From a virus: a stretch of DNA of 40,809 bases. The translations under genes and the position numbers were made by a program. The DNA lies in the IMG/VR virus record IMGVR_UViG_3300025325_000064, positions 1 through 40,809 of that record; one strand, given 5' to 3'. The notes below the pieces were generated by a model. It had not been told where the DNA came from and did not search any database. It saw nothing but the letters and a program-made list of their open reading frames with translations. Positions 871 to 40,013 of the stretch are shown one piece after another (within the stretch, counting starts at the first letter, position 1; each line of letters begins with the position of its first letter).

Positions 871-1383
871 CTAGACCCTGAAAGTATCAAGGAACTCCGT
901 AGCGCGATTGAGCCAGCCCTGAGCGAAAACGGCTTGGCTATGGTCGTTAGAGATGATCTGCCCATAGAATCGAATCCGCTCCGCGCAGAAGCGCAGATAG
1001 ACGGCCTTCGAACCTAGCGCCAGAATCGCACCGATCGTTTTCGGTCCGATGATGCCGTCTTGGTCCGCGCCGACAGCGGCCTGTAGCATCTTGACGGCGC
1101 GCCCTGCTCCGTGATTCACGGCTGCATCAACTACGAGGCCGCGCAGCGTTCCGTCGATGATCCGATTGAGTTTCGGTGCGATTATGTATCGCTCTTCATA
1201 GATCGCCCGCGCCTCGCCTTCCGTGAGTGCCTTCAATTCGTCCACATTACAGGAGCGAGCGCGATGCGTTGAGAGAGTAGAGAGCGTGATGCCGAACTTG
1301 GTCGGGCCGCCACGGTCGGCGGGATGATCCGTGTAGCCCCCCTCGCGCTTCAAAATGTCGGTGATGATGTCCTGGTCCGTCAT
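871..1383 (-). CDS. Endolysin, GH108-type lysozyme with C-terminal peptidoglycan-binding domain
   Basis: The 170-residue protein opens with the GH108 signature REGGYTDHPADRGGPTKFGI; the Glu of EGGY (residue 14) is the expected catalytic acid. The second half, with DAAVNHG, QAAVGADQDGIIGPKT and a final RFYG/GWLNR segment, matches the family's C-terminal predicted peptidoglycan domain. Length is normal for the family. It has no signal peptide, so it should need a holin to reach the cell wall glycan it cuts. It overlaps the upstream glycosidase-like gene by 4 nt. Confidence 0.93.
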   Translation of the reverse strand: MTDQDIITDILKREGGYTDHPADRGGPTKFGITLSTLSTHRARSCNVDELKALTEGEARAIYEERYIIAPKLNRIIDGTLRGLVVDAAVNHGAGRAVKMLQAAVGADQDGIIGPKTIGAILALGSKAVYLRFCAERIRFYGQIISNDHSQAVFAQGWLNRATEFLDTFRV

Positions 1384-2228
1384 GCTCGATTGCTCCCTGG
1401 CACGATCTCCATACCGTTACCATACTGACCTATCAGGACGCGCTCTTTCAAGTCCGAACTAATCCCGAGAACAGCCCGCGCGCTTGCGAGTTCGATCGGA
1501 TTCTCGCACCAGGCGATCCCGAACGTAGGACTGTGGGCAAAATCAAATGAGGCTCTATACTTCGCGGCCGCGAAGGCGGACTCTAGCGAGATGCCGTTGA
1601 GCGCATGGTCTATCCTACCGACGCCAGAGTTTCCGATGATGATGGCTTCCGGCCACGCCTTTCGGATCGCCCATGAGAGAACAGGATTCGCGTCGGTGTA
1701 GAATGCCGCGATCTCGTGGGCCGTATCAGCCACTCCATCCCCGTTCGCGTCGATCCCGCCCCACGCTTCGATCTGCCTGATTCGGAATGGCGGTAGATAT
1801 GACGATAAATCATCGACGTAGACACCGCTTGCTCCGCCCGAGCGAATCCTCTCGACCGAGCGCTCCACTTGCCAGCGGATTGCCTCCGGCGTGAGTGAGT
1901 AATGGGAGGTCGTCGCGCGGCCGTCCGGCCCAGTATAGAAACTGACGCCATAGCCATTCAATTTCTTCCAAAGCGCGCGCGCCGGAAATGTTTCCTTCAC
2001 TTCCTTCGCGTACTCCCACTCTGGCTCTCGGTCAGGCGGGAAATTGATCTCGCCGGCATTGATATAGCCGAGGAGGATGGAGAACGGCAGTCGCCTCCGC
2101 ACATCGATCATCCTCTCTGGCGGGATGCTCGTGTTGTATACGATCACCGAGAACGCAGACAGCCTCGCCTCAAGGCTCTCGTCGATGTCGCGCTCTTGCA
2201 ACGTAAAATATGCGTATCGCTCACTCAT
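1380..2228 (-). CDS. Putative TIM-barrel glycoside hydrolase-like protein
   Basis: The 282-residue product has strands and acidic motifs of a TIM-barrel glycosidase-like fold: SILLGYINAGEI, ASGVYVDDLSSYLPP (Asp pair at a strand end) and AIIIGNSGV. A short Ca-binding-like loop GIDANGDGVADTAHE lies near the middle. I chose ATG at 2228, 9 nt after GGAG; an in-frame TTG at 2237 directly abuts the Shine-Dalgarno and is unlikely. It precedes and overlaps the endolysin, so it may attack cell wall, capsule or another glycan. Exact family and substrate are not established. Confidence 0.72.
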   Translation of the reverse strand: MSERYAYFTLQERDIDESLEARLSAFSVIVYNTSIPPERMIDVRRRLPFSILLGYINAGEINFPPDREPEWEYAKEVKETFPARALWKKLNGYGVSFYTGPDGRATTSHYSLTPEAIRWQVERSVERIRSGGASGVYVDDLSSYLPPFRIRQIEAWGGIDANGDGVADTAHEIAAFYTDANPVLSWAIRKAWPEAIIIGNSGVGRIDHALNGISLESAFAAAKYRASFDFAHSPTFGIAWCENPIELASARAVLGISSDLKERVLIGQYGNGMEIVPGSNRA

Positions 2229-2243
2229 CTCTACCAACTCCTT

Positions 2244-2321
2244 TCATAGCGGCATCTCCGCGTGCATCACTGTCACGTTGTCGTAGTAATCGACTATCGC
2301 GATAGTGATATTGGTAGACGA
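2244..2321 (-). other. 25-codon in-frame extension behind the TAG of the lipoprotein gene
   Basis: After the TAG at 2322-2324 the same frame stays open for 25 codons and ends with TGA at 2244-2246, directly followed by the AAAGGAG of the next gene. The extension contains NITIAIVDYYDNVTVMHAEM, which echoes the last residues before the stop (DVTITVSDPYENWTVTTANN). It is either an amber read-through tail or the stranded end of a gene cut by a nonsense change. Confidence 0.5.
2293..2306. repeat. 14-bp perfect palindrome ACTATCGCGATAGT
   Basis: The palindrome lies in the apparent 93-nt gap between the lipoprotein gene and the glycosidase-like gene, inside the in-frame extension. With no spacer it is a poor hairpin as RNA and has no T-run, so it is not a standard terminator. 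It may be a protein-binding site or simply coding sequence of the extension. Confidence 0.5.
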
Positions 2322-3098
2322 CTAGAACGCCCAGTTGTTGGCCGTCGTCACCGTCCAATTCTCATATGGGTCAGAGACCGTAATCGTCACGTCATATACC
2401 CGATCCCACAACGAGATTGGATAGGACCAGACGACCTCGCGCTGTCGGGCTGAAAACCAAGCAGCCATGATCTGTCCGGGACTCAGGTCGTAGGTTCTCA
2501 GAATGTCTCCGTTCTCCGCGTGGACCGCGAACGCAATCCACCGAACCTCGGTATCGTCAGACACATAAAGACGCATCCATCTATTAGATCGGACTGGATC
2601 GCCCATGTCTGGGCTGATCCGCTCTAAAGATTCGGTCGGCATGTCAACGTACGAATCCGTGATCCAAACCCGATTGCTACGCATGTCGAACCCCTCAAGC
2701 AGAATCCTACTCCTCGTCCCAGTGTACATGCCTTCGATTCGTACATCCCACGGCTCTGAGGCATAACCAGATGCTGATGTAGAGGCAAGTCTTATCCAGG
2801 GCTCGCGTGAGCCAACTTTGCTCTGTGTCACGATCCACCAACGCGCGGCGGCAATGCCTGGAATCTCCTCTACCACGGCACGGATACGATATGGACTTTC
2901 GATAGTAACCGTGGCTACTTGACTCATGGCAAGCGTCGGAACCGGACGCGCCAAAAGATAATCGCTCAGTCCAATTCCGCTATGTGGCGAGGCCACGTAC
3001 AGCGTCGAGTCCTCGCCGTAGATTGGGTCGATGTGCTTCGAGGTGTCGGGATCGGCAACGCAGCCGGCAAGTAATATGAGAAGCGGGACTATTCTCAT
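2322..3098 (-). CDS. Phage-encoded lipoprotein
   Basis: The N-terminus MRIVPLLILLAGC is a textbook lipoprotein signal with lipobox LAGC, so the mature 246-residue protein should be lipid-anchored outside the inner membrane. The remainder is rich in beta-strand-like segments with many Trp and Tyr and no recognised family. ATG at 3098 forms a TGATG junction with the preceding gene; an in-frame GTG lies 3 nt upstream. The gene ends in TAG with an open, related-looking frame behind it. Roles such as outer-membrane attachment, superinfection exclusion or lysis are possible. Confidence 0.75.
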   Translation of the reverse strand: MRIVPLLILLAGCVADPDTSKHIDPIYGEDSTLYVASPHSGIGLSDYLLARPVPTLAMSQVATVTIESPYRIRAVVEEIPGIAAARWWIVTQSKVGSREPWIRLASTSASGYASEPWDVRIEGMYTGTRSRILLEGFDMRSNRVWITDSYVDMPTESLERISPDMGDPVRSNRWMRLYVSDDTEVRWIAFAVHAENGDILRTYDLSPGQIMAAWFSARQREVVWSYPISLWDRVYDVTITVSDPYENWTVTTANNWAF

Positions 3099-3298
3099 CA
3101 CGTCGAATCCCGTGGTCCGTGTCCTCGCGCGGAGTCGGGCTTGTCGTGCCCGTGTCCATGTCTCGGCAAATCCGGTATGTCGATCAGACTATCCGGCAGC
3201 GCCGAGAAAATCAGCCGAGTAACCGTATCTCCGCAGCCCCACATCAACGCGGCCAGTAGAACGAATGTCGCCAGAAGTGCCGACCTTAGAATCCTCAT
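3098..3298 (-). CDS. Short membrane-anchored or lipoprotein-like protein, o-spanin candidate
   Basis: The 66-residue product has a basic start (MRILR), a hydrophobic segment to about residue 20 ending in LMWGC, and a polar tail with Pro, His and Gly (LPRHGHGHDKPDS). A Cys at the end of a signal-like helix plus a short Pro-containing tail recalls outer-membrane spanins, but MWGC is not a canonical lipobox. It overlaps both neighbours within a run of five small envelope genes. Confidence 0.6.
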   Translation of the reverse strand: MRILRSALLATFVLLAALMWGCGDTVTRLIFSALPDSLIDIPDLPRHGHGHDKPDSARGHGPRDST

Positions 3299-3657
3299 GT
3301 GCTGCCACCTCTCATCTTGTTGAACGTCTCAAGCACCTTGACTATGGCGAGCAGGATGCCAGTAATGGCCGTTCCAGCACTCACAAGCCCATCCATCGCC
3401 CCCCTGGCTTTGTCCTTGACAGCCTCGTAAGTGATAGACGTTGCTGGAAGGGCCGGGCCAGGAACTCCGAACTCTAGCGCATCGCCAGCCTTCGGCAAGC
3501 CAATGACTCCTCGCGCCGTCTCCGCCGCTCGGTCGAACCAGACATAGGCGCAGAGCATCCCGAACGGAACGAGGAACCACGGAGACTTCATTCCAGCGAG
3601 CCGTGACTGGACGGCTACGGAACGACGAGTCCTCCGTCTAATTTTGCTGCGTCTCAT
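3295..3657 (-). CDS. Small membrane protein, function unknown
   Basis: The 120-residue product begins with a very basic stretch (MRRSKIRRRTRRS), then a transmembrane segment around SPWFLVPFGMLCAYVWF (about 25-41), a polar middle, and a second hydrophobic helix around AGTAITGILLAIVKV (about 94-108). Its start overlaps the upstream stop as ATGA. Two spans and a place in the lysis block make a holin role possible, but the basic start is unusual for one. Confidence 0.65.
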   Translation of the reverse strand: MRRSKIRRRTRRSVAVQSRLAGMKSPWFLVPFGMLCAYVWFDRAAETARGVIGLPKAGDALEFGVPGPALPATSITYEAVKDKARGAMDGLVSAGTAITGILLAIVKVLETFNKMRGGST

Positions 3658-3839
3658 TTGAGGAACACCGCTCGGATCACTTCCGGTATTACGCCACTCC
3701 CTATCGCGCCACCGCAGACACCTGAAAGGAACGCGACCGTCACGATGCGCGTTGTTATGACCTGCTTGACCACGGCCAATTCAGTCTCCAGAGCATGCAC
3801 GCGCTCCATCAATTCATCATCTTTCTTCGTCGACGCCAT
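3654..3839 (-). CDS. Coiled-coil plus C-terminal membrane segment, XhlA-like arrangement
   Basis: The 61-residue product has a heptad-like N-terminal half (MERVHALETELAVVKQVI) and a hydrophobic C-terminal helix (VTVAFLSGVCGGAIGSGV). Small phage lysis accessory proteins of the XhlA type show this coiled-coil-then-membrane order. GGAGCAGCG precedes the ATG. It overlaps the upstream gene by 23 nt and the downstream gene by 4 nt. Function is inferred from layout only. Confidence 0.65.
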   Translation of the reverse strand: MASTKKDDELMERVHALETELAVVKQVITTRIVTVAFLSGVCGGAIGSGVIPEVIRAVFLK

Positions 3840-4074
3840 CGCTGCTCCGTTGGGCGCTGAGGGCTCGTAACTCTACCAAGATACTGTCCTGCCTGGCCGT
3901 AATCTTCTCGACTGCGTTGCGTCCGAACTTGCTGTATTCACTGATCGCAGTCTCCGCAGCGGTTGCGGCTGTTTTTGTCGATGTCTGTCGGCGTAGCACG
4001 GCTGTCGCGATGACTGATAGCGCCGATAGAATCACTAGCATCAAGATCGTGAGGCGTCCGTTGATCGGCTTCAT
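3817..4074 (-). CDS. N-terminal membrane anchor with coiled coil, i-spanin-like
   Basis: The product (about 85 residues) has one transmembrane helix near the start (LTILMLVILSALSVIATAVL) followed by a long hydrophilic, probably helical tail (SKFGRNAVEKITARQDSILV). Inner-membrane spanins have this topology, although most are longer. ATG at 4074 makes a TGATG junction with the preceding gene. A short lipoprotein-like gene downstream could be its partner. Confidence 0.62.
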   Translation of the reverse strand: MKPINGRLTILMLVILSALSVIATAVLRRQTSTKTAATAAETAISEYSKFGRNAVEKITARQDSILVELRALSAQRSSDGVDEER

Positions 4075-4640
4075 CACGCTATCTCAACGAAGTAATCATG
4101 CATGACGACGCTATGCGATGCGTCTGCCGCAGACCACTGCCACGTCACGACAAGATCCTTATTTGCGGTCGTATCCAGAGCAAAACCAGGCGTTGGCACA
4201 TTCACATAAACCTGTGCAATGGAAACTCCAGTTGCGCTACGACTCGTCGTGTAACCATGTGCCATAGCGGTTCCAGATGCTCCAGCCGTCCTAATTCCTA
4301 GCAACCCATCGACTCGCCATTGTCGATCAGTCTGCGAGATGGTAATCGTGACGGCGGGAAAGTCAAGAACGATGACGCCTGCGATGCCACCATATCTCAC
4401 TCTGGCCGTCCACGTTGCGGCCGTGATGCCTGTCGAGAACAGACCAGCGGCAGAAAAACGCGCATGGCTTCCGGCAACAAGGCTATCAGCGATGATGGTC
4501 GGAAACTTGTCGAAGGCTGTCTCTGTCGCAGTATTGGCGATTGCGGACGAGGCGGCAACCTGTCGATATATAACTCCGACTGCCCCATCGGCCTCTTCTT
4601 TTGCGATACGCGCCGACCTGATTCGTCTCTGAACAGCCAC
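4074..4640 (-). CDS. Virion structural protein, probable tail fibre or tip domain
   Basis: The 188-residue product contains a beta-sandwich-like stretch found in many phage tail or capsid accessory proteins: ATETAFDKFPTIIADSL, an AGSHARFSAAG strand, RVRYGGIAGVIVLD, then WRVDGLLGIRTAGASGT and a closing VVTWQWSAADASHSV. No signal peptide. GTG start with GGGGAG upstream. It lies between tail-tip genes and the lysis block, where fibre or receptor-binding genes often sit. The family is recognised by pattern only. Confidence 0.65.
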   Translation of the reverse strand: MAVQRRIRSARIAKEEADGAVGVIYRQVAASSAIANTATETAFDKFPTIIADSLVAGSHARFSAAGLFSTGITAATWTARVRYGGIAGVIVLDFPAVTITISQTDRQWRVDGLLGIRTAGASGTAMAHGYTTSRSATGVSIAQVYVNVPTPGFALDTTANKDLVVTWQWSAADASHSVVMHDYFVEIA

Positions 4641-4643
4641 TCT

Positions 4644-5027
4644 CTACGGCTCCCCTATCGTCACCGTGATCTTGCCGGTCGCGAACACCGGAATCTCTCC
4701 GGTAGTAACGGTGTTGGCTTCAGTGACTTGAACATCATCTAATGTAAGTTCGTCCTGCACGCTATCGATATCTGAAATCATGTTTTCGTGAGCCGTCTCT
4801 GGATCAGCATGGTCGGCTGATAGCGTAATCTTTCTCTTCGTGCCATCACTAGGATCGACCACTGTCGCGTCAACCGTGGCTATAGCAGTAAGACGCGCGA
4901 TTCTTTCCCATTCCGCCTTGAATCTCGTTGCCTCGTCTGGCGTCATCGACGCAGAAGCCTTCACTCGATAAGCTGTGGTCCCTCCGATCGAGTATTCCTT
5001 CATCGTCCAACTCTGTGCGAATGCCAT
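4644..5027 (-). CDS. Hypothetical tail-associated protein
   Basis: The 127-residue acidic product shows alternating polar/hydrophobic segments with a helical part (MTPDEATRFKAEWERIARL) and a strand-rich C-terminus ending FATGKITVTIGEP. GGAGG lies just before the ATG at 5027. It sits 9 nt behind the large tail protein and 3 nt before the fibre-like gene, so a virion role is likely. No family was recognised. Confidence 0.65.
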   Translation of the reverse strand: MAFAQSWTMKEYSIGGTTAYRVKASASMTPDEATRFKAEWERIARLTAIATVDATVVDPSDGTKRKITLSADHADPETAHENMISDIDSVQDELTLDDVQVTEANTVTTGEIPVFATGKITVTIGEP

Positions 5028-5036
5028 GTCAACCTC

Positions 5037-8000
5037 CTAGTCGTGTACCGCGCCTATCGCTTCGATAACGCTTCGCGCCCGCGCTATGTCGTGAGTGATC
5101 GCCCGGACTGTCACCGTCTCGACGTGCGGATCAGTCGGAACAAGGTCGGGACTGTAGACTTCCACGCGATCCCATAGGGATACGTAGGGCGCTAGCGCCG
5201 TATCGATGCTCCATATCCATCGCGGCTGCTTGTTCTGTGTGAGACGTGACTGTCCGATGTAGAGCGCCTTGCGCGCTAGCAGGTTGCCGCGCTGCGTGGA
5301 GAATACGCGCTTCCCGTACTTGCGGATCGCGTCGGCATCGAACGCCGTCACCTTCGCGTTGTCGTTAGCGACAACCTCTATGCCAGGAATCTTGATCGTG
5401 ATGCGGTCGCCCTCGTGCCAGGACGACTCATTATAGTTGATGTCATAGCCATCGTCCGGCGGCTCGCTGAATCGAATCAGGATGCCGCTCCGCCAGTCCT
5501 TGCCAGCGCCCAATTCTTGCCACTCGAACGACGAAACAAGCACGTCCTTTCCGTCACCGGCCGCAGCCGAAGTCGATCCCGCATAGGAGCGATCAACCTC
5601 AAGATCAATCTCGACCGGGCTTCCGGCGTAGACCGTAGAGGCTGGCGTCCAGTTAGAAGAGAGAGATAGAGTCAGGAATCCGGTTGATGCACCGCTTATG
5701 TTCGTGATAGTGCGCTCCGTACCGTCTGGAAGCCTGATGACCGAGTTCTTTGGAATCTGTAGTTCTCTTTGAAGGTCGCCACTCGCATCAAGTTCGTTAT
5801 GTGGACCACCGAGACTTTTCCCGCCGCCCGAGACGAACACGACCCCCGTGGCGACCCCGCCAGCGTAGGTATTAGAGAGCCAGCCCTTCAGCGTTCCGCC
5901 CTGTAAGTAGTACGAGAAGCGCGCTGTCCCGACGCGCCCGCCCTGTATGCACTTGAGCGAGACGAGTTTCTCCTTCGGGTCTGGCGCTTGAACCTCTAGC
6001 AATTCCGGCGATGCCTTGAGCGTGCTTTCGGAGGTCAGGTCTATATCGGCCGTGATGGTGCCGGACCGGAACGTGTACGGTGTGATCTCTACTTGATTCT
6101 CGACTTCCTCATAGCCGCGTCGCTTCGATAGGCGCGTTGACAGATCGGTTCCACCGCCGAACCGCACGATTCCAGCGCCAGTCTTGATCCGATCATCGAA
6201 CAGGAAGTTGCCGCGCCCATCATTATCGAAGCCCCATACGGCCGCTCCGGCGAATGCGAGGTCGCCCATCGCCTCTTCCAGCGTCTTGTCCTTGAAGTAG
6301 GCGAGTTCCGTGTTGTCCATCAAGTCGGAGTCGTACTTCCAGGCGATATACATTCCATCGTGGACATCCCCACGAATGTCGTCGCCGAACGGCCATGTAG
6401 GACTGCTAATCCCGTAGACCTTGTTCGCCGTGAGCGCCGCCAATTCGAGCGTCGCGCTCCAATGCTCGCCGTCCACGGGCGCGAATCCACGGTCTAAGAC
6501 CTGTGTTGCCGTCGTGTCGATCTTACCGTCCGAATCCTTGACCTCAAACTTCATCAAGCGCCCCGCCGAGTCGAGCGCGAATGCCTGTCTGGTCTGTCCA
6601 GGTACGGCAGTGAATGCGTGAGGGATTGACGCAATCGCCACGTCCATCGTGATACCGGAGTAGAGCGTATCCGCGAGGAAGCCCCTCATGTGGAACATGT
6701 CGGATAGGCCGACGTTGTTCCTTGAGAAGAACGTCGTTATCAGGGTCCGCTTTGTTGATCCTGTTCCTGCAAGCAACTTCATCCAAATCGGCGTCAGGTA
6801 CGAACCCACGTCTGTACCATCCCAGACTGAGATAATCGCGCCCATCGTGAACGATTCGATGAAAGATTGACTATCGCCAGTCTCGCTCCATCGTATGAAT
6901 CCATAGGCACCAACTGGACCAGTGGCCCAGGCCCCATCATTTCCGCACATGGAAATAGGTTGATCGCCGGCAGTGAGCGTTTGCAATGTCGAACCCGTTC
7001 CGTCCATTACGTTCCAGGTCTTGATCGTTGGGACTCCGTTCGTCGTGTTCAAATCGCAGTAAACGATAGCCCCACCAGTTGCCCAGGCCGTGATTCCAAG
7101 CGGATCGCCGACGTAGGCCGCAGCGCCCATCTGCCCGAGCGCGTATTTTACGTTGTGGCCGCCCTCGGCGGAAACGGTATTCGCGAACGCGATGGCCCAG
7201 TAACTCTTGTTCAGTGCGGCCGGAGTCCCGCGCTCGGAATCCGTAACGGCCTCATAGACTATCCCTATATCGTAAGGCTCCTGAGAGCCGCCCGATTGAT
7301 CGCGCAGTCGAAATCCGTTCGATCCCGGCTCGCCCGCCGGCGGCGCCGACTTGAGATACTGGCGGATTCCTCCGACTAGATAGGTTGTGCCGAGCCCTGA
7401 GCCAGTCGGCCACCCGAGTTTCTGCGGGAACGGAAGCGCGATATTTTCACCTTGAGCCGCATCGTCCACGGTGTTTCCGCCGAGACCAGTGGCGTCGCCC
7501 TTCCGCATCACGTGCGTACCTGGCCAAAGCGTGTTGACGACCTGAGAGCGGTCGAGGATTCCGCTCGCGCCGTTCCAACGGAATAGAGTCGCGCCGACTG
7601 ACCTAGCGGACCATGTGTTATTTGACAAGACGAGCGGATAATCCGACCATGCTAGCCCACAAATCTTCGGCTTTCCGGCTGTCGTCGTATCGAGAGCGTT
7701 ATACCAGAGACGGCGGATTCGCTGTCCTCCCGTAGCGTTGAAGAATCTAAGTGTTGATTCGAGAGTGATCGGATCGAACTCGTAGATGCTTGATCCGATC
7801 CCGAGGAAGAGACGACCTGCGCGCGCCGTGTCTCCCGTGAACACATTCCCGACCCCGACGACCTGCGGGTCGTAAACCATTGCCGATGGATAGTTGCCAG
7901 CCACGCCGCTACTGAGAGTAGACAGGTTGCGGTCTAGCCACGGATGCGCGAAGCCGCCGTTTTGCTTGATAAATGCCGCTGGCTTCCCGAAGTGAGAGAC

Positions 8001-28293: not shown

Positions 28294-29220
28294 TCAGGAA
28301 GTCTCGGCTATCCCGAACTCCTTTCGGTAACGGGCTGCGGCATCGTGCCACCCGGCGTCCCGGCTATCGTAAAATGTTTTGCCGTAAGTCTTTTCACACC
28401 ATTCATTCCAGTCTTGTTTCGGCTGTTCTTGTGTGTTTCCATTCTTCGTCCAGGGCGCGTCCGCTAGTCCCTCATAGACGGCCTGCGGACGGTCCCCCAT
28501 GAGCATCTGCTTGGGGTCTACGCCGAAGTCGCGTTCTGTTATGGCTATATGCTTGGCCACTGCGACGAGAATCGGACCATTCCTGCCGTCTGCAGCAATG
28601 AGCGGCGTGAGGACCTGAGCGAATCCAACGCCGAGAGTGCGCTCGGCTAGTCCGAGTGCAAGGCGCTCGGCTTTCAGCGCCGCGATGAGTGTCCAGGCGT
28701 CCTCGGACGTGCCTTCCGGTGGCTTTCGCTTTTTCTCCGTCCTGACGGATTTGGGTGCTTTGATGCCGAGCGGGAGCGAAGGCGTTAGTATATCTTTCTC
28801 TTTCTCTACATCTTTCTCTACTTCTACACCGTTACGTAACGCGTTACTAGCGCCGTTACGTAACGCTCGGTATCTCCTTTGTCTGACTGCATTTGAAGGA
28901 TCGGATGGCGCTTGCCACTCCTCCCAGTGATTGATCTCAATATCGCCGTTCGTGCGCACTTTGATAAGCCCGGCGTTACGTAACGTGTTACGTAACGACT
29001 CAAGATCAAACGCAACATTGCCGCCCTCGCCTGGCTCTATCGCAGCGATATGGACCAGGTGGCCCCATGACGGATTTCTGATAACCCCGCGCTCAGTTGA
29101 TTCCGAGGCCAGGCACCAAAGCGTCACGAGGAACCGAAACTCGGCATTATCTAACTCAACGATCTTAGGATCATGTATCGCCCGCGTCCAGAACTTGAAC
29201 CAGCCAAGATGGCTTGCCAC
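28294..29220 (-). CDS. Putative replication initiator / replisome organizer
   Basis: The 308-residue product begins HLGWFKFWTRAIHDPKIVEL and continues with LDNAEFRFLVTLWCLASES, the pattern of the N-terminal winged-helix domain of phage replisome organizers. A charged linker follows (about 130-170, VEVEKDVEKEKD), then a helical C-terminal domain that may recruit helicase or a loader. Four GTTACGTAAC palindromes lie within codons about 75-130 of its own gene. This mirrors lambda O, whose gene contains the origin it binds. GTG start sits behind AGGGGGAGG. Confidence 0.7.
   Translation of the reverse strand: MASHLGWFKFWTRAIHDPKIVELDNAEFRFLVTLWCLASESTERGVIRNPSWGHLVHIAAIEPGEGGNVAFDLESLRNTLRNAGLIKVRTNGDIEINHWEEWQAPSDPSNAVRQRRYRALRNGASNALRNGVEVEKDVEKEKDILTPSLPLGIKAPKSVRTEKKRKPPEGTSEDAWTLIAALKAERLALGLAERTLGVGFAQVLTPLIAADGRNGPILVAVAKHIAITERDFGVDPKQMLMGDRPQAVYEGLADAPWTKNGNTQEQPKQDWNEWCEKTYGKTFYDSRDAGWHDAAARYRKEFGIAETS
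28791..28830. other. AT-rich, pyrimidine-biased tract beside the iterons (possible unwinding element)
   Basis: Of 40 bases, 26 are A or T and 34 are pyrimidines on the plus strand. It directly abuts the first palindrome at 28831. In lambda an AT-rich, strand-biased tract next to iterons in gene O is where the duplex opens, and the arrangement here is the same. The tract encodes the Glu/Lys linker of the initiator. Confidence 0.45.
28831..28996. repeat. Four GTTACGTAAC palindromes (origin iterons) inside the initiator gene
   Basis: Exact copies lie at 28831-28840, 28855-28864, 28975-28984 and 28987-28996; three of the four extend to CGTTACGTAACG. A half site CGTTAC is at 28842-28847. They form two pairs about 110 bp apart. 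I found no exact copy elsewhere in the window. They encode repeated LRN tripeptides in the initiator. Probable binding sites of the initiator at the replication origin. Confidence 0.65.
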
Positions 29221-29447: not shown

Positions 29448-30860
29448 CTAAAGTCTCCCGACCGGAGGAAACTCCTTCCTGATCGCCGAAATGTCTCCCC
29501 TGTAGGCCATGATTATCTTCTGCTCTCGCTTGGGAAACTTCCGATAGTTTAGAGTCTTTTTCGCGTGGGCGAGTCTTGTGAATTCACATTCGAGGTAGAC
29601 GATCTTGTTATAGACGGAGAGTCCGCGATCCTTGAAAAACAACTCCGTCTCTGCTTCTGAGCAATAGTACGCACCGCTCTTGTCTCGGCTGTCTCCAGTC
29701 ATCACAACGAAGAATCGGTTATTGTTTAGATGCGCAATAGCACGTTCGTAGCCGGAGAAAAGCAGCGCCCGAAATTCATCATACGTTCCAGTGCTGTTCA
29801 GTTCGCCATCAGGAGGCTTCCCATCGTAGTCAACATACCTTTCCACCTTATAGTATGGTGGGCAAGTAAAAATGAGGTCGAACATGCCATCAGGATCATA
29901 GATAGAACTGTCGCTTTTGATCCATTGTACAGCATTGAATCGAGCGCATAGTTTGTTATTAGCGTCGCACTGATTGGCCCGGATTTCACTTGCCACGTAC
30001 TCGTATCCGTAGTGACCTGCCACGAATCCAAACTGTACGCCACCGCCAAACGGATTATATATACGGCCACCAGCGTTCGGCATAAAGAATCGCAGGATCA
30101 CTTCGCATGCAACCGGATCAAGTACCGAGGCGTTGCCATTGTGTGCCTTTGTCGTGGCCTCCACTTTGCCATCAGAGTTTATGAATCGTCTTGTATTGAC
30201 GACGTTCGAGTATCCGTTCTCGCCCTGCCAGCACCCGTCGCGAGTAGCGTAGGTTGGGTTTTCTATTCCAGAAAGCATGCCGGCCTCCTCAATTCGCTCG
30301 TTCCACTCTCTCTTCAATCGAAGCCAGTCGCCCTTGACTGTGTTCCAGACGTTCGTCATGGTGATATGCGCCAGCAACTTCATGCGCACACTATCAATCG
30401 GTCCTCGCACCATGTAGTGAAACCCCGACATCTTGAGATACGTAACGAATCCGAGGTCCTCGAAGAGTCTCGTGGTCTCGAACTTGCTTTTTGGATCCGT
30501 GGTGATAAGCGCAGGATAGCCATCGGTGTTCTGATGAATCACGGCCTCGACCATCTTCCTATACCGGCTGTCGCTATAGTGCTCGGGCCTGATGACCGAC
30601 TGTAGAAGGCAAAACTCGCGGCATTCGTGATTCTTCTGAAACGTCATGAACCCACTAAACTGGCCATCTACTTTTAGGATGATGGCAGAGTGAATCTGCA
30701 TGTTCTTTCGAGCCGCCCGCTTAGCGATTCCGTCTCTCACTGCTAATTCCGCGACAGCGCCTTCATAGCCAGACCCGATGACACTTTCGACGTATTCGTA
30801 CTCAATCGCATCTGGGAACATTTCTTCCTGCGTTGCTTCTCGCGTGACGGGATCAGGCAT
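29448..30860 (-). CDS. GNAT-like domain fused to a DNA modification methyltransferase
   Basis: The 470-residue protein has two parts. Residues about 20-155 look like a GNAT acyltransferase fold: IILKVDGQFSGFMTFQ, SDSRYRKMVEAVIHQ, and the signature TTRLFEDLGFVTY. Residues about 195-470 are a DNA amino-methyltransferase: motif I NPFGGG (269-274), GYEYVASEIR, catalytic FTCPPYY (331-337), then TYDEFRALLFSGYERAI, NNRFFVVMTGDSRDKSGAYY. Order I then IV suggests N6-adenine or N4-cytosine chemistry. The GNAT part recalls Mu Mom, which alters adenines. It should modify phage DNA. Codon use looks more AT-rich than neighbours, suggesting transfer. Confidence 0.82.
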   Translation of the reverse strand: MPDPVTREATQEEMFPDAIEYEYVESVIGSGYEGAVAELAVRDGIAKRAARKNMQIHSAIILKVDGQFSGFMTFQKNHECREFCLLQSVIRPEHYSDSRYRKMVEAVIHQNTDGYPALITTDPKSKFETTRLFEDLGFVTYLKMSGFHYMVRGPIDSVRMKLLAHITMTNVWNTVKGDWLRLKREWNERIEEAGMLSGIENPTYATRDGCWQGENGYSNVVNTRRFINSDGKVEATTKAHNGNASVLDPVACEVILRFFMPNAGGRIYNPFGGGVQFGFVAGHYGYEYVASEIRANQCDANNKLCARFNAVQWIKSDSSIYDPDGMFDLIFTCPPYYKVERYVDYDGKPPDGELNSTGTYDEFRALLFSGYERAIAHLNNNRFFVVMTGDSRDKSGAYYCSEAETELFFKDRGLSVYNKIVYLECEFTRLAHAKKTLNYRKFPKREQKIIMAYRGDISAIRKEFPPVGRL

Positions 30861-30873
30861 ACGCCAGGCGCAT
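30853..30873 (-). other. Six-codon leader ORF overlapping the methyltransferase start
   Basis: TTGGAGG at 30885-30891 lies 11 nt before an ATG whose frame reads MRLAYA and stops at 30853-30855, just past the methyltransferase ATG at 30860. The ribosome site is 24 nt from that ATG, too far for direct use. Termination and re-initiation at the overlapping start could set enzyme level. Confidence 0.4.
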
Positions 30874-30905
30874 CTGTCGAGTGTCCTCCAATAGACTGAT
30901 TTGCC

Positions 30906-31190
30906 TCAACTCGGCTTCCCGCCCGGGAACTGGAGGATACCGCGCACGGGCGAGACGTGCTGATTTTGAAGCCAGTTTAGATAGCCCTGGATCGCCTGCG
31001 ACTGCTCCATCATCCGCTGCGCGACGAGCATGTCGGCGCAGATACCGGATTGCGTCGTCTCCTTCGTGACGGTATTCGTAATCGTCATGGGGACGAAGAG
31101 CGTGCAGTCTGGCCCGAGGCACTTGTGGCTGAAATCGCGGTGGCAGGCCTTCTCTCTCGGGTCCGGCGGCGACTGCGGCTTCTCGCTCAT
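30906..31190 (-). CDS. Cys-rich 94-residue protein in the nuclease/modification operon
   Basis: The product has Cys at about 16, 24, 29 and 51 (ACHRDFSHKCLGPDCTLF; SGICADMLVA), a possible metal site of a kind seen in small phage proteins, then a helical Gln/Met-rich part (AQRMMEQSQAIQGYLNWLQ). ATG overlaps the nuclease stop as ATGA with AAAGGAG upstream. Its role is unknown; sharing an operon with the nuclease and modification enzyme suggests an accessory function. Confidence 0.7.
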   Translation of the reverse strand: MSEKPQSPPDPREKACHRDFSHKCLGPDCTLFVPMTITNTVTKETTQSGICADMLVAQRMMEQSQAIQGYLNWLQNQHVSPVRGILQFPGGKPS

Positions 31191-31753
31191 GCGGCTCCTT
31201 TTATGAACGATTCAAGATCGCGTAAAGCGCCCCACGGCATTGCATGTCTGGGCTTCCCGCGCCACCCGGTTCCGTCGCCCTCACTTCGTAAGGGATGGAT
31301 AAGGGATTCGCGCCCGATTGCCCATCCGACAAAATAGATAATCCAATCAGAGCCGTCTTTCGGATACGTAAGCCTTGAGGTTAAGAGTAGGAAGCGAGCA
31401 TCAATCCTTTCGTCTGGTTTGATATAGAGTATCGGACACCGAGTCGGCCAATTGTATCGCACTTCGGTCCCATCTATCAGATCGCCATCGCGCATCGGTC
31501 CGATAGTCGCGCGCGCTGGAATGCCAGTCCATCGTGCGGCGGCCTGTTCGGTTATACGACCGACGATGCATGCTTCAGGTCCAGAATGTTTTCTGTCGCC
31601 TAGTCCATCGCGATAGCCGTTTCTCCGATCGTATTCGTCTCGCCGCCTACCCTCGTCTATCCATCGGGTCACGTCCCGACCGGGCAGCAAAAGAGTGCCC
31701 GTTGGGATCGGGAGCCAAGTATCCTCAATCTTCGAGAAATCAACGCGGACCAT
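31187..31753 (-). CDS. Predicted PD-(D/E)XK nuclease-like phage protein
   Basis: The 188-residue product matches a pattern I associate with a restriction-endonuclease-like fold in phages: CIVGRITEQAAARWTG (Glu 69), DGTEVRY (Asp 94, Glu 97, Arg 99 in place of Lys), CPILYIKPDERIDARFLLLT, WIIYFVGWAIGRES and GWRGKPRHAMPWGALRDLE. The D-x2-E-x-R arrangement fits an active site with Arg for Lys. The ATG lies 9 nt after a TATAAT box with no ribosome site; a GTG 6 nt upstream is an alternative. It is first in an operon ending with the modification enzyme. Confidence 0.65.
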   Translation of the reverse strand: MVRVDFSKIEDTWLPIPTGTLLLPGRDVTRWIDEGRRRDEYDRRNGYRDGLGDRKHSGPEACIVGRITEQAAARWTGIPARATIGPMRDGDLIDGTEVRYNWPTRCPILYIKPDERIDARFLLLTSRLTYPKDGSDWIIYFVGWAIGRESLIHPLRSEGDGTGWRGKPRHAMPWGALRDLESFIKGAA

Positions 31754-31762
31754 TAACACGGA

Positions 31763-31790
31763 ATTATAGCAGGGTCGGAAATCAAGTCAA
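31763..31790 (-). promoter_or_regulatory. Strong leftward promoter for the nuclease/modification operon
   Basis: On the minus strand TTGACT (31785-31790), a 16-nt spacer ending TGC, and a perfect TATAAT (31763-31768). The start ATG (31753) follows after 9 nt, so the transcript should begin at or within a few bases of the start codon. Confidence 0.75.
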
Positions 31791-34498: not shown

Positions 34499-35004
34499 CC
34501 ATTAAAGATGAGAAGCCCGTTGGACCCGTACATGATACCTCCGTACCATATTGGCTGATTAATCGGCTCTTGAGGGCGGTGGCTGGCCGGGAGTTGTCTT
34601 TAGCCGATGACGCCGAATCATCTAGGGAGTTCGCATTCGGTCAAACGGACGAAGGCAAAAGGCTGAGCCGCGAGATACATCGTCTCGCAGTCGATGAGGT
34701 CAACATAGCGTCCAGACTGTCTATTTCTGGTGAGTATAAATATGAAGTTTGCCTGATTCTGGCGTATATCCTCGGTCAGTATTGTCACCCCCACGACGAG
34801 GCACCGCTAGCGGAGCCCAGCGAGATTCGTATATACGATAGCCTTGGTGTCTCGTACAGGGTGATATCGGATGACGCGGGCGAAATCTACATGCTTGAAC
34901 GATGGGGCCACGGCCAGTGGCATCCTCATACTGTGACGCCTGCGTTCAATTCGGAATCCGAGGCAACCGCATATGCAAAGAAATTAAATGCTGACGATGA
35001 CTAA
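34495..35004 (+). CDS. 169-residue hypothetical protein between recombination genes, AT-richer
   Basis: ATG overlaps the upstream TGA as ATGA. The product has a helical N-terminal half (REIHRLAVDEVNIASRLSIS) and a compact C-terminal part with IRIYDSLGVSYRVISDDAGE and MLERWGHGQWHPHTVTPAFN, which looks like a small beta domain. Its composition differs from its neighbours: 33 of 60 bases from 34501 are A or T, against 24 of 60 from 34321. It may be a recent insertion into the recombination pair. Function unknown. Confidence 0.6.
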   Translation: MTIKDEKPVGPVHDTSVPYWLINRLLRAVAGRELSLADDAESSREFAFGQTDEGKRLSREIHRLAVDEVNIASRLSISGEYKYEVCLILAYILGQYCHPHDEAPLAEPSEIRIYDSLGVSYRVISDDAGEIYMLERWGHGQWHPHTVTPAFNSESEATAYAKKLNADDD

Positions 35005-35968
35005 GCCCACGGACTTCGACGCCGCTGCTGCAATGGCGCACGAGTTTGAGGCGAAGTTCCGGGAAAGGCTGGCCGCGAAAGCGCATGTGTCGCCACGCCA
35101 CACTAACCGGGCTTCCGAACTCGACGATCCCTGCGTGCGGCGGCTCTACTATAAGCGCGTCGCGTGGAATAAGGAGCCGCCGCCGAGCGTTGAACTACAG
35201 GCGATCTTCGAGGAGGGGAACCTGCATGAGCCAGCAGTTATCCGCCTACTCGACGAACTCGGTTGGCGGCTTCTGCACGAGCAGGTGACGATCCACGACC
35301 GAGGACTGAATATCAGCGGTACGCCCGAGGGATACATCGAAGCCTACGGCGTGAGGCTCCTCGCGGACATCAAGACGATCTCTCCGTACAACTTCGACCG
35401 TATCAACTCGGCGGACGATCTTCGGAAATCCACAGGATATTATCGCCGCTGGTACGGGCAGATGCAGACGTATCTTTTCCTTATCCCATTGGAAGCGTGT
35501 GTCATCTTCCTAAAGAACAAGGCGACAGGATGGATAAAGGCTATCCCGATCGCACTCGACTACGACTACGCGGAGGCATTGCTGCAAAAGGCTGAGACCG
35601 TGAACCTGGCGGTTGCTTGTGAGGAGCCCCCGCCTTTCGTCTCGGACCCGCGCGAGTGCCGCCGCTGCGCGTTCCTCGGCTCGGTCTGCGCGCCGCCGCT
35701 CGATTACGGGCCAGGGGCAGCCGTAATCACGGATGACGGACTGATCGAAGCCGAGGGCATCTATCATTCGACCGCCGATGCCGCGCGCCAGCACGAGCAC
35801 GCAAGCAAGGCGCTCAAGGAAGCGGCGAAGGCGACTGGTAGAGAACTCGTCCTTTGCGGCGAGAGCGTGCTGACAGTCAGCAAGTCGGAGCGGAAAGCAT
35901 ACCAAGTGGCCGCCGGAGATGTCGTGAAGGTGAAGATCGAGCGGCCAGGAAAGGATAACGATGACTAG
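34988..35968 (+). CDS. Cas4/RecB-like iron-sulfur exonuclease
   Basis: The 326-residue product has the Cas4/AddB-like plan. Cys 49 in ELDDPCVRRLYYKRV and Cys 224, 227 and 234 in RECRRCAFLGSVC are the four likely ligands of a 4Fe-4S cluster. The nuclease core has EEGNLHEPAV, GTPEGYI (Glu 114), LLADIKT (Asp 127, Lys 129) and QMQTYLFLI (Q-x3-Y motif). It should resect DNA ends for the annealing protein. The start is ATG 34988 or 34997; both overlap the upstream gene and neither has a strong ribosome site. Residues after 240 form an extra helical tail. Confidence 0.82.
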   Translation: MLTMTKPTDFDAAAAMAHEFEAKFRERLAAKAHVSPRHTNRASELDDPCVRRLYYKRVAWNKEPPPSVELQAIFEEGNLHEPAVIRLLDELGWRLLHEQVTIHDRGLNISGTPEGYIEAYGVRLLADIKTISPYNFDRINSADDLRKSTGYYRRWYGQMQTYLFLIPLEACVIFLKNKATGWIKAIPIALDYDYAEALLQKAETVNLAVACEEPPPFVSDPRECRRCAFLGSVCAPPLDYGPGAAVITDDGLIEAEGIYHSTADAARQHEHASKALKEAAKATGRELVLCGESVLTVSKSERKAYQVAAGDVVKVKIERPGKDNDD

Positions 35969-37989: not shown

Positions 37990-38213
37990 AAGAAACGCAA
38001 ACGACCAAGTGCTGCACGCAAGACTGTGGAAAGCGAGCCACGATATATGGTGGTCATGTTCACAAGACAGACGAGCCCGTTCTGGATAGCATCACTGCTG
38101 GATGGTGCGAGAAACACGTGAAAGGCCCCACAAAGTCCACAGGAGAGCGTTGCGGTCCTGGGTGCTACGGCCGGTGGCTCGACTGGATGGGCGTAGAAGA
38201 TGTCGATGCCTAG
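37986..38213 (+). CDS. 75-residue Cys-rich zinc-finger-like protein
   Basis: GTG start with GGAGGAGGAG directly upstream. The product contains [27 protein letters not shown] and ERCGPGCYG: six Cys plus several His in three clusters, well suited to bind one or two zinc ions. It overlaps the HNH gene by 14 nt. Function unknown. Confidence 0.62.
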
Positions 38214-38649
38214 CCTCCTCGAACGATTCGAGGCCAAGGTCTATCCAGAGCCGATGAGCGGGTGTTGGCTTTGGGTTGGCACAGTTGGCAGCAATGGCTA
38301 CGGTACTCTCTGGCTGAATGGACACTTAATGCGGGCTCACCGTGTTGCGTGGATTCTCTATCGCGGGCCAATCACAGAGGAGTACGTTTGCCACCATTGC
38401 GACAATCGACTGTGTGTCAACCCATGCCATCTGTTTCTTGGGAGCCCATCCGACAACACCATAGATTCTATCCGCAAGGGCAGAAATCACCACCTTAACC
38501 TCATGGCCTGTCCTCTCGGCCACCCGTATTCTGGAACAAACCTGCATGTTACTACTAAAGGCTACAGGGAGTGTCTAGCCTGTAAACGAGCATGGACGCA
38601 GAAGTGGCGTGCGGAAATTATGGCGCAGCGAAGCGGCGCGGTATCGTGA
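38200..38649 (+). CDS. HNH homing-type endonuclease
   Basis: The 149-residue product carries the HNH_3-type core: [55 protein letters not shown] and [15 protein letters not shown], with the catalytic His in HHC and Asn/His in CVNPCH. A second Cys pair ([17 protein letters not shown]) follows, like the zinc-binding tails of such enzymes. Freestanding HNH genes are mobile in phages. ATG 38206 is an alternative start. Confidence 0.85.
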
Positions 38650-39409: not shown

Positions 39410-39684
39410 GCGAGATACTGGAGTGGGCTAAGAGAGAGCGAGAGCGTGCGATGGCTTACGTGAATCCGCCTGGCCAGCATATTCCGGTGATCTCGATGCA
39501 GGAGAAGCAATGGTTCGCCATCCTCGACGCCCTGATCGCCCGCGAGGAGGCGCTGCTGGCGGTGAAGCAATTCGACGATGAACTTGGGCTATTTACGAGT
39601 CCAGGTGGAGACCCGCTTGCACTAGATGCCATTCTAGAGCAGGTTGGCCTAGCCCTCGCCGTCGATCCGAGGCCGAAGACATGA
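39406..39684 (+). CDS. 92-residue helical hypothetical protein
   Basis: GTG overlaps the upstream TGA as GTGA, with AGGAGGAAGAA before it. The product starts with a charged helix (SEILEWAKRERERAMAYV), then MQEKQWFAILDALIAREEAL, and ends with FTSPGGDPLALDAILEQVGL. Function unknown. Confidence 0.58.
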   Translation: MSEILEWAKRERERAMAYVNPPGQHIPVISMQEKQWFAILDALIAREEALLAVKQFDDELGLFTSPGGDPLALDAILEQVGLALAVDPRPKT

Positions 39685-40013
39685 GCCACGACCCAGACGG
39701 TTTCGAGCGCATCGCCAACTTGCTACCGCCGGAATGCCGAGAGGCCAGGTGTTTCAAGACGCCTACTGGCTGCAAGGTGTTCGTCTCGCTAGATGATGGT
39801 CGCTGGCATATGTCCATTTCGCATCCTGGCCGCTATCCATTGTGGGCCGAGATCAAGAGGGCCCGCTACGCCCTCCTGCCGCCAGAGTTCACGATGGTAA
39901 TGATCCTGCCGCCACCGGATCAGTACGTGAACCATCATCCCAATTGCTTTCACTTGTGGCAATGCGAGGAGATCGCAGACCTGTCACCAATGAATGCTAG
40001 GCTTCGGCCATGA
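39681..40013 (+). CDS. DUF7694-like phage protein
   Basis: ATG overlaps the upstream TGA. The 110-residue product resembles a small phage domain family: DGRWHMSISHPGRYPLWAEI, then MVMILPPPDQYVNHHPNCFH ending in LWQCEEI (surface strand, then P-P-x2-x-Y-V-N-x-H-P and F-H-L-W). The family has no known function but is common in early gene blocks. The name is assigned by pattern memory only. Confidence 0.65.
   Translation: MSHDPDGFERIANLLPPECREARCFKTPTGCKVFVSLDDGRWHMSISHPGRYPLWAEIKRARYALLPPEFTMVMILPPPDQYVNHHPNCFHLWQCEEIADLSPMNARLRP

Follow-up and report, generated by a model that had tools for sequence, protein, structure and literature searches.

A GNAT-methyltransferase fusion from an uncultured tailed phage belongs to a family persistently linked to a probable radical-SAM partner, with a proposed role in DNA-base hypermodification

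The locus described here raises the question of whether three adjacent genes of a viral contig act together as one system that cuts and modifies DNA, or whether one of them is the conserved part of a different system. A sequence-only reading of the window, the whole 40.8-kb stretch of DNA that was analysed, proposed a compact operon in which a PD-(D/E)XK-like nuclease (P0003), a Cys-rich partner (P0002), and a fusion of a GNAT-like domain to a DNA methyltransferase (P0001) sit alone behind a near-consensus promoter. Much of the described layout is correct, as the three ORFs are adjacent on the minus strand, P0003 and P0002 overlapping by 4 nt and P0002 and P0001 being separated by 45 nt, the second gene encodes the four Cys attributed to it, and the promoter is the sole 11/12 match on both strands of the window. 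The end of the -10 box lies 9 nt from the P0003 ATG, which suggests that the P0003 transcript is almost leaderless. The genes do not sit alone, because the same strand runs on after 227 nt to a replisome organizer and, past it, to the small terminase, large terminase, and portal genes. P0003 to P0001 thus stand first in the block of leftward genes of a tailed phage.

Features of the gene block (29448-31790, minus strand) and of other regions of the window
Feature	Position	Strand	Description or basis
P0003	31187-31753	-	188 aa, ATG start; orphan ORF
P0002	30906-31190	-	94 aa; Cys at 16, 24, 29, and 51
P0001	29448-30860	-	470 aa; GNAT-MTase fusion, conserved core
Sigma-70-like promoter, extended -10	31763-31790	-	TTGACT-16-TATAAT, TG ahead of -10, 11/12
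GNAT-fold domain of P0001, about aa 19-152	30405-30806	-	AlphaFold2 model and PDB matches
Amino-methyltransferase-type domain of P0001, aa 208-466	29463-30239	-	PHROG profiles
Motif I-like NPFGGG, aa 269-274	30039-30056	-	Near-invariant in family alignment
Motif IV-like TCPPYY, aa 332-337	29850-29867	-	CPPYY invariant, TCPPYY near-invariant
GGAGG and six-codon mini-ORF	30853-30889	-	MRLAYA, ATG at 30873
Replisome organizer	28294-29220	-	227 nt beyond P0001
Cas4-domain/RecE-like exonuclease	34988-35965	+	PHROG 1990, E 2.4e-26
HNH endonuclease	38200-38646	+	PF13392, E 5.6e-10
DUF7694	39681-40010		E 3.5e-20

A structure model and PHROG profiles confirm that the third gene joins a GNAT domain to a DNA-methyltransferase-type (MTase) domain. 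The AlphaFold2 model of the N-terminal domain (pLDDT 83.9, from an alignment of 72 sequences) has the element order b1-a1-a2-b2-b3-b4-a3-b5-a4-b6-b7, that of the GNAT superfamily fold, and every one of the 50 PDB matches listed for it is a GNAT or a GNAT-fold acyltransferase (best E 7.6e-6, probability 1.00). The Q/RxxGxG/A loop that binds the acyl-CoA pyrophosphate is missing after b4 (past EFCLLQSVI) in the family alignment, and because this usual loop is absent, acyl transfer by the GNAT domain is putative. The C-terminal domain matches PHROG 498, annotated as DNA methyltransferase (E 1.2e-35), and PHROG 12517 (2.3e-39), with Pfam PF01555 matched only below the family cut-off, and it carries the marks of amino-methyltransferases (N6/N4), namely a Gly-rich motif I and a PP[YFW] motif IV. 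The joining of a GNAT to a domain of this type makes it likely that P0001 acts in nucleic-acid modification.

The nearest described relatives of the MTase half are the ParB_N-DNA-MTase fusions of PHROG 498, such as gp77 of Listeria phage B054 and gp36 of Enterococcus phage phiFL3A, whose MTase halves are homologous to that of P0001 (33% identity over aa 244-465/470) and share TCPPY with it. P0001 itself has no match to ParB_N in Pfam or PHROGs; the P0001 family differs from the ParB fusions in having a GNAT domain in place of ParB_N, usually with a radical-SAM domain ahead of it.

A first scan of viral sequences found 49 relatives of P0001, and a search of IMG/VR with the GNAT alignment yielded at least 231 matching stretches, overlapping these 49. 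The family is widespread in environmental viral contigs, yet single-sequence tblastn searches of 50,697 phage records found neither the GNAT domain nor the radical-SAM partner. Bacterial and archaeal species genomes contributed only 6 relatives from 84,980, mostly on contigs of metagenome-assembled genomes, labelled Spirochaetes, Massilibacteroides, Desulfobacula, Desulfobacterales, and Smithella. The phages that carry the unit are mostly uncultured and their hosts, where named, are often anaerobic.

Most relatives are longer than P0001, at ~730-790 aa (the three-domain proteins are ~750 aa), or are flanked upstream or downstream by a separate gene of ~260-300 aa. Among 97 distinct contigs, gathered with GNAT or P0001 queries and not with radical-SAM queries, a radical-SAM partner is fused to or directly beside the GNAT-MTase in 92. 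The partner is a divergent domain of ~280 aa in 85 of these 92 contigs, being fused N-terminally in 54, encoded just upstream in 19, and just downstream in 12, and in the remaining 7 it is replaced by a canonical PF04055-type radical-SAM enzyme, encoded just downstream. Of the 5 contigs lacking a partner, 3 have a GNAT-MTase that begins no more than 140 nt from the contig end, so that whatever lies upstream is out of view, L051 is a fragment, and the last contig represents the window lineage, which is the sole assessable exception to the linkage. Other families of flanking genes occur in no more than 7 of the 49 loci, the commonest being, by look, a YqaJ-type exonuclease (7/49).

In a 74-sequence tree, the fused state requires 14 changes, at least 9 of them forced by starred branches, and the canonical replacement requires 3-5. 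Repeated fusion, separation, and replacement, with a partner kept throughout, indicate that the unit consists of radical SAM, GNAT, and MTase, and the physical link among the three is, by computation, a persistent feature of these uncultured viruses. The literature and databases searched, which did not extend to Iyer et al. (2013, NAR), hold no earlier description of this set and no name for it. Members of the main radical-SAM family and of the GNAT domain that were tested match no Pfam or PHROG model, so annotation pipelines probably miss the unit.

Assignment of the divergent partner to the radical-SAM superfamily draws on structure, on residue conservation, and on comparison with the canonical replacements. 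Its structure model (pLDDT 89.3, pTM 0.86) is a partial (b/a) barrel of the radical-SAM type, and its seven best PDB matches are radical-SAM enzymes without exception, with the PFL-activating enzyme first (E 1.1e-3, probability 1.00) and EpeE, biotin synthase, AprD4, SkfB, and CysS among further matches; the TM-scores to these structures, at about 0.3-0.5, are modest. An alignment of 87 sequences shows six near-invariant Cys. In radical-SAM enzymes, the Cys that bind the cluster follow the first strand with the textbook spacing CxxxCxxC. Three of the six partner Cys (in KGC, GGC, and xxCYA) occupy the loop after b1, spaced C-x11-C-x3-C, and the other three lie near the C-terminus in GxCxxCPDxCG, where they could hold a second cluster.

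The seven replacements (L044, L046, L145-148, and L154) are akin to spore-photoproduct-lyase-like enzymes, in that they match PF04055 or the profile of sequences that match it; of the two scanned directly, L044 scores above the PF04055 cut-off (E 2.4e-10) and one falls just below. The divergent and PF04055-type partners have G-x-x-x-D and TK motifs in common, whereas the main family differs in its C-x11-C-x3-C spacing, its C-terminal CxxCxxxC, and its failure to match any Pfam model. Profiles of the two types are co-linear over 205 columns (P 8e-4), an alignment that places the KGC/GGC/CYA Cys in the canonical Cys region; the first HHalign comparison was weak (P 0.008) and reached P 8e-4 once sequences were added. 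A profile search of the PDB with the partner alignment returned repeat-protein noise only. Taken as a whole, the divergent partner is likely, but not proven, to be a radical-SAM enzyme.

With a probability of roughly 0.6, P0001 supplies the GNAT and MTase domains of a radical-SAM unit for post-replicative, sequence-targeted hypermodification of DNA bases that protects the phage. The MTase-type domain would bind DNA, flip a base out, and methylate or otherwise alkylate it, after which the radical-SAM domain would activate the base or the new methyl group by means of a 5'-deoxyadenosyl radical. The GNAT-fold domain would then add or position an acyl-type group, and the modified bases would protect phage DNA from host nucleases. 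We infer that DNA is the substrate, and likewise infer the succession of steps, the product, and the protection; the kinship of the MTase domain and the gene setting make DNA the likely target.

Part of that setting is a family of DNA-decorating glycosyltransferases, the TAGTs (PMC13390438). In two short records, L174 and L180, whose genomes may encode a GNAT-MTase elsewhere, the partner directly follows a TAGT (PF20691, E 7.7e-42 and 6.8e-52, respectively) and is not accompanied by a GNAT-MTase, and in L044 the GNAT-MTase and the canonical radical-SAM gene are immediately preceded by two tandem TAGTs (4218-5916). Of 50 whole records no more than three contain a TAGT, a count to be taken as a lead rather than as a statistic. 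At positions 943-3776 of L174, a ParB_N gene, an FkbM-type methyltransferase, the TAGT, and the radical-SAM partner stand in a row, the partner ORF being broken. A divergent partner in the absence of a GNAT-MTase is also seen in L186, L187 (about 3995-7224), and L224 (about 951-4747), where its neighbours are a gene of ParB_N-like type and another radical-SAM gene, which in L186 matches PF04055.

The association with TAGTs invites comparison with the TET/JBP and TAGT systems of phage, which may follow the same logic of methylating a base, activating the methyl group, and decorating it, with the difference that a radical-SAM enzyme stands in the place of TET. The scheme of methylation, radical activation, and decoration is proposed by analogy with TET/TAGT systems. 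A Tet_JBP dioxygenase had no match in 42 records, in a search that gave no positive-control signal. A more specific and quite tentative version holds that the single polypeptide carries out a counterpart of the TET pathway that does not depend on oxygen, in which the MTase would methylate, the radical-SAM domain would activate the methyl C-H, and the GNAT or a neighbouring TAGT would decorate the product to give an undescribed base.

In phages such as ViI, M6, and PaMx11, thymidine hypermodification is post-replicative, involves multiple enzymes, and uses radical-SAM and acyltransferase steps. The radical-SAM, GNAT, and MTase unit would resemble these pathways in such steps, whereas they begin from 5-hydroxymethyl-dU with kinases and transferases, enzymes not noticed among the neighbours of the unit. 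The set would count among the hypermodification systems of phage DNA, and its chemistry may be new. This is of some consequence, as hypermodified phage DNA is a main source both of novel nucleic-acid chemistry and of the means to resist restriction and CRISPR. If the proposal is true, radical-SAM chemistry on a methylated base joins the known DNA-modification toolkit.

For the window lineage there is a simpler reading, in which its P0001 is an ordinary DNA methyltransferase, the GNAT domain serves as an appendage for structure or DNA binding, and the radical-SAM step is lost. No radical-SAM gene was found in the window with either partner profile or with PF04055, the record being linear and possibly incomplete. 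A tblastn match of the L007 partner at 38118-38351 (27%, E 0.004) was rejected, since profiles did not confirm it and it falls in the HNH-endonuclease region. On the tree, the window P0001 groups with L004 and L007, with weak support (83), and in both of these relatives a separate gene encodes the partner, an arrangement from which it is easily lost, so partner loss is the simplest reading for this lineage. A search for relatives of the window terminase, intended as a comparison set for the frequency of TAGTs, found only the twin contig. The MTase motifs of P0001 are intact, in keeping with an ordinary methyltransferase, but its GNAT residues are conserved as in partnered copies, the whole protein deviating at 2 near-invariant columns against a family median of 1, which suggests that GNAT function is still selected. 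With two deviating columns only, the window P0001 is probably still functional. The reading of P0001 as an ordinary methyltransferase is judged unlikely, if a serious contender, and the absence of the radical-SAM part from the record may mean either a simpler modification or a step supplied by an unsequenced part of the genome or by the host.

Somewhat less probable still is a unit that acts on RNA, for example host tRNA, or on protein instead of DNA. Many GNATs and radical-SAM enzymes act on RNA or protein, and the top PDB matches of the partner include protein- and peptide-modifying enzymes. However, the MTase domain groups with the phage ParB-DNA-MTases, and TAGT DNA glycosyltransferases and ParB_N genes are found next to the partner, both of which argue for DNA.

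A third reading, which is very improbable, places P0001 in the Mom family, as a GNAT that attaches a carbamoylmethyl group to adenine N6, and casts P0002 as the counterpart of Mu Com. Mu Mom and the P0001 family do have points in common, including a GNAT fold in which the usual acyl-CoA loop (RxxGxG) is seen by eye in neither, a small Cys protein ahead of the gene, and a proposed role in DNA modification. Mom, however, acts alone with Com and has no MTase or radical-SAM part, and HHalign gave a probability of 0.2% for kinship between the P0001 GNAT and relatives of Mu Mom; no sequence relation is detectable, and kinship was rejected. P0002 as a Com-like protein found no support either, as it matches no family and its gene is not kept alongside P0001.

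Least probable of all is the restriction-modification-like operon of the sequence-only reading, with P0003 as nuclease, P0002 as Cys-rich partner, and P0001 as modification enzyme, for which the adjacency of three genes behind one plausible promoter and a DGTEVR motif in P0003 speak, and against which stand the absence of P0002 and P0003 beside any P0001 relative examined, their want of homologues, and a motif that occurs at chance level. The D-x2-E-x-R arrangement noted in P0003 is real (DGTEVR, aa 94-99), but D..E.[KR] arises in 13.6% of composition-matched shuffles. Searches of Pfam, PHROGs, and NCBIfam place P0003 and P0002 in no family, the 50,697 phage records yield no homologue of either at a threshold as loose as E<=10, and P0003 has no match in the PDB; in IMG/VR both match nothing but a twin contig (L003) of 100% identity. 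P0003 may yet be a nuclease, but profile and homologue searches give that reading no support. Among the 49 loci, the MTase likewise has no conserved nuclease neighbour of the kind expected of restriction-modification. Since P0002 and P0003 do not accompany the P0001 relatives examined, the three genes are not a conserved system, and the P0001 fusion in the window should not be taken for part of a restriction-like operon.

The window does encode a Cas4-domain/RecE-like exonuclease, a nuclease supported by profile, unlike P0003, and also the HNH endonuclease and DUF7694 listed in the table. Within the gene block, a GGAGG precedes a six-codon mini-ORF whose stop overlaps the start of P0001, an arrangement in which translational coupling is possible.
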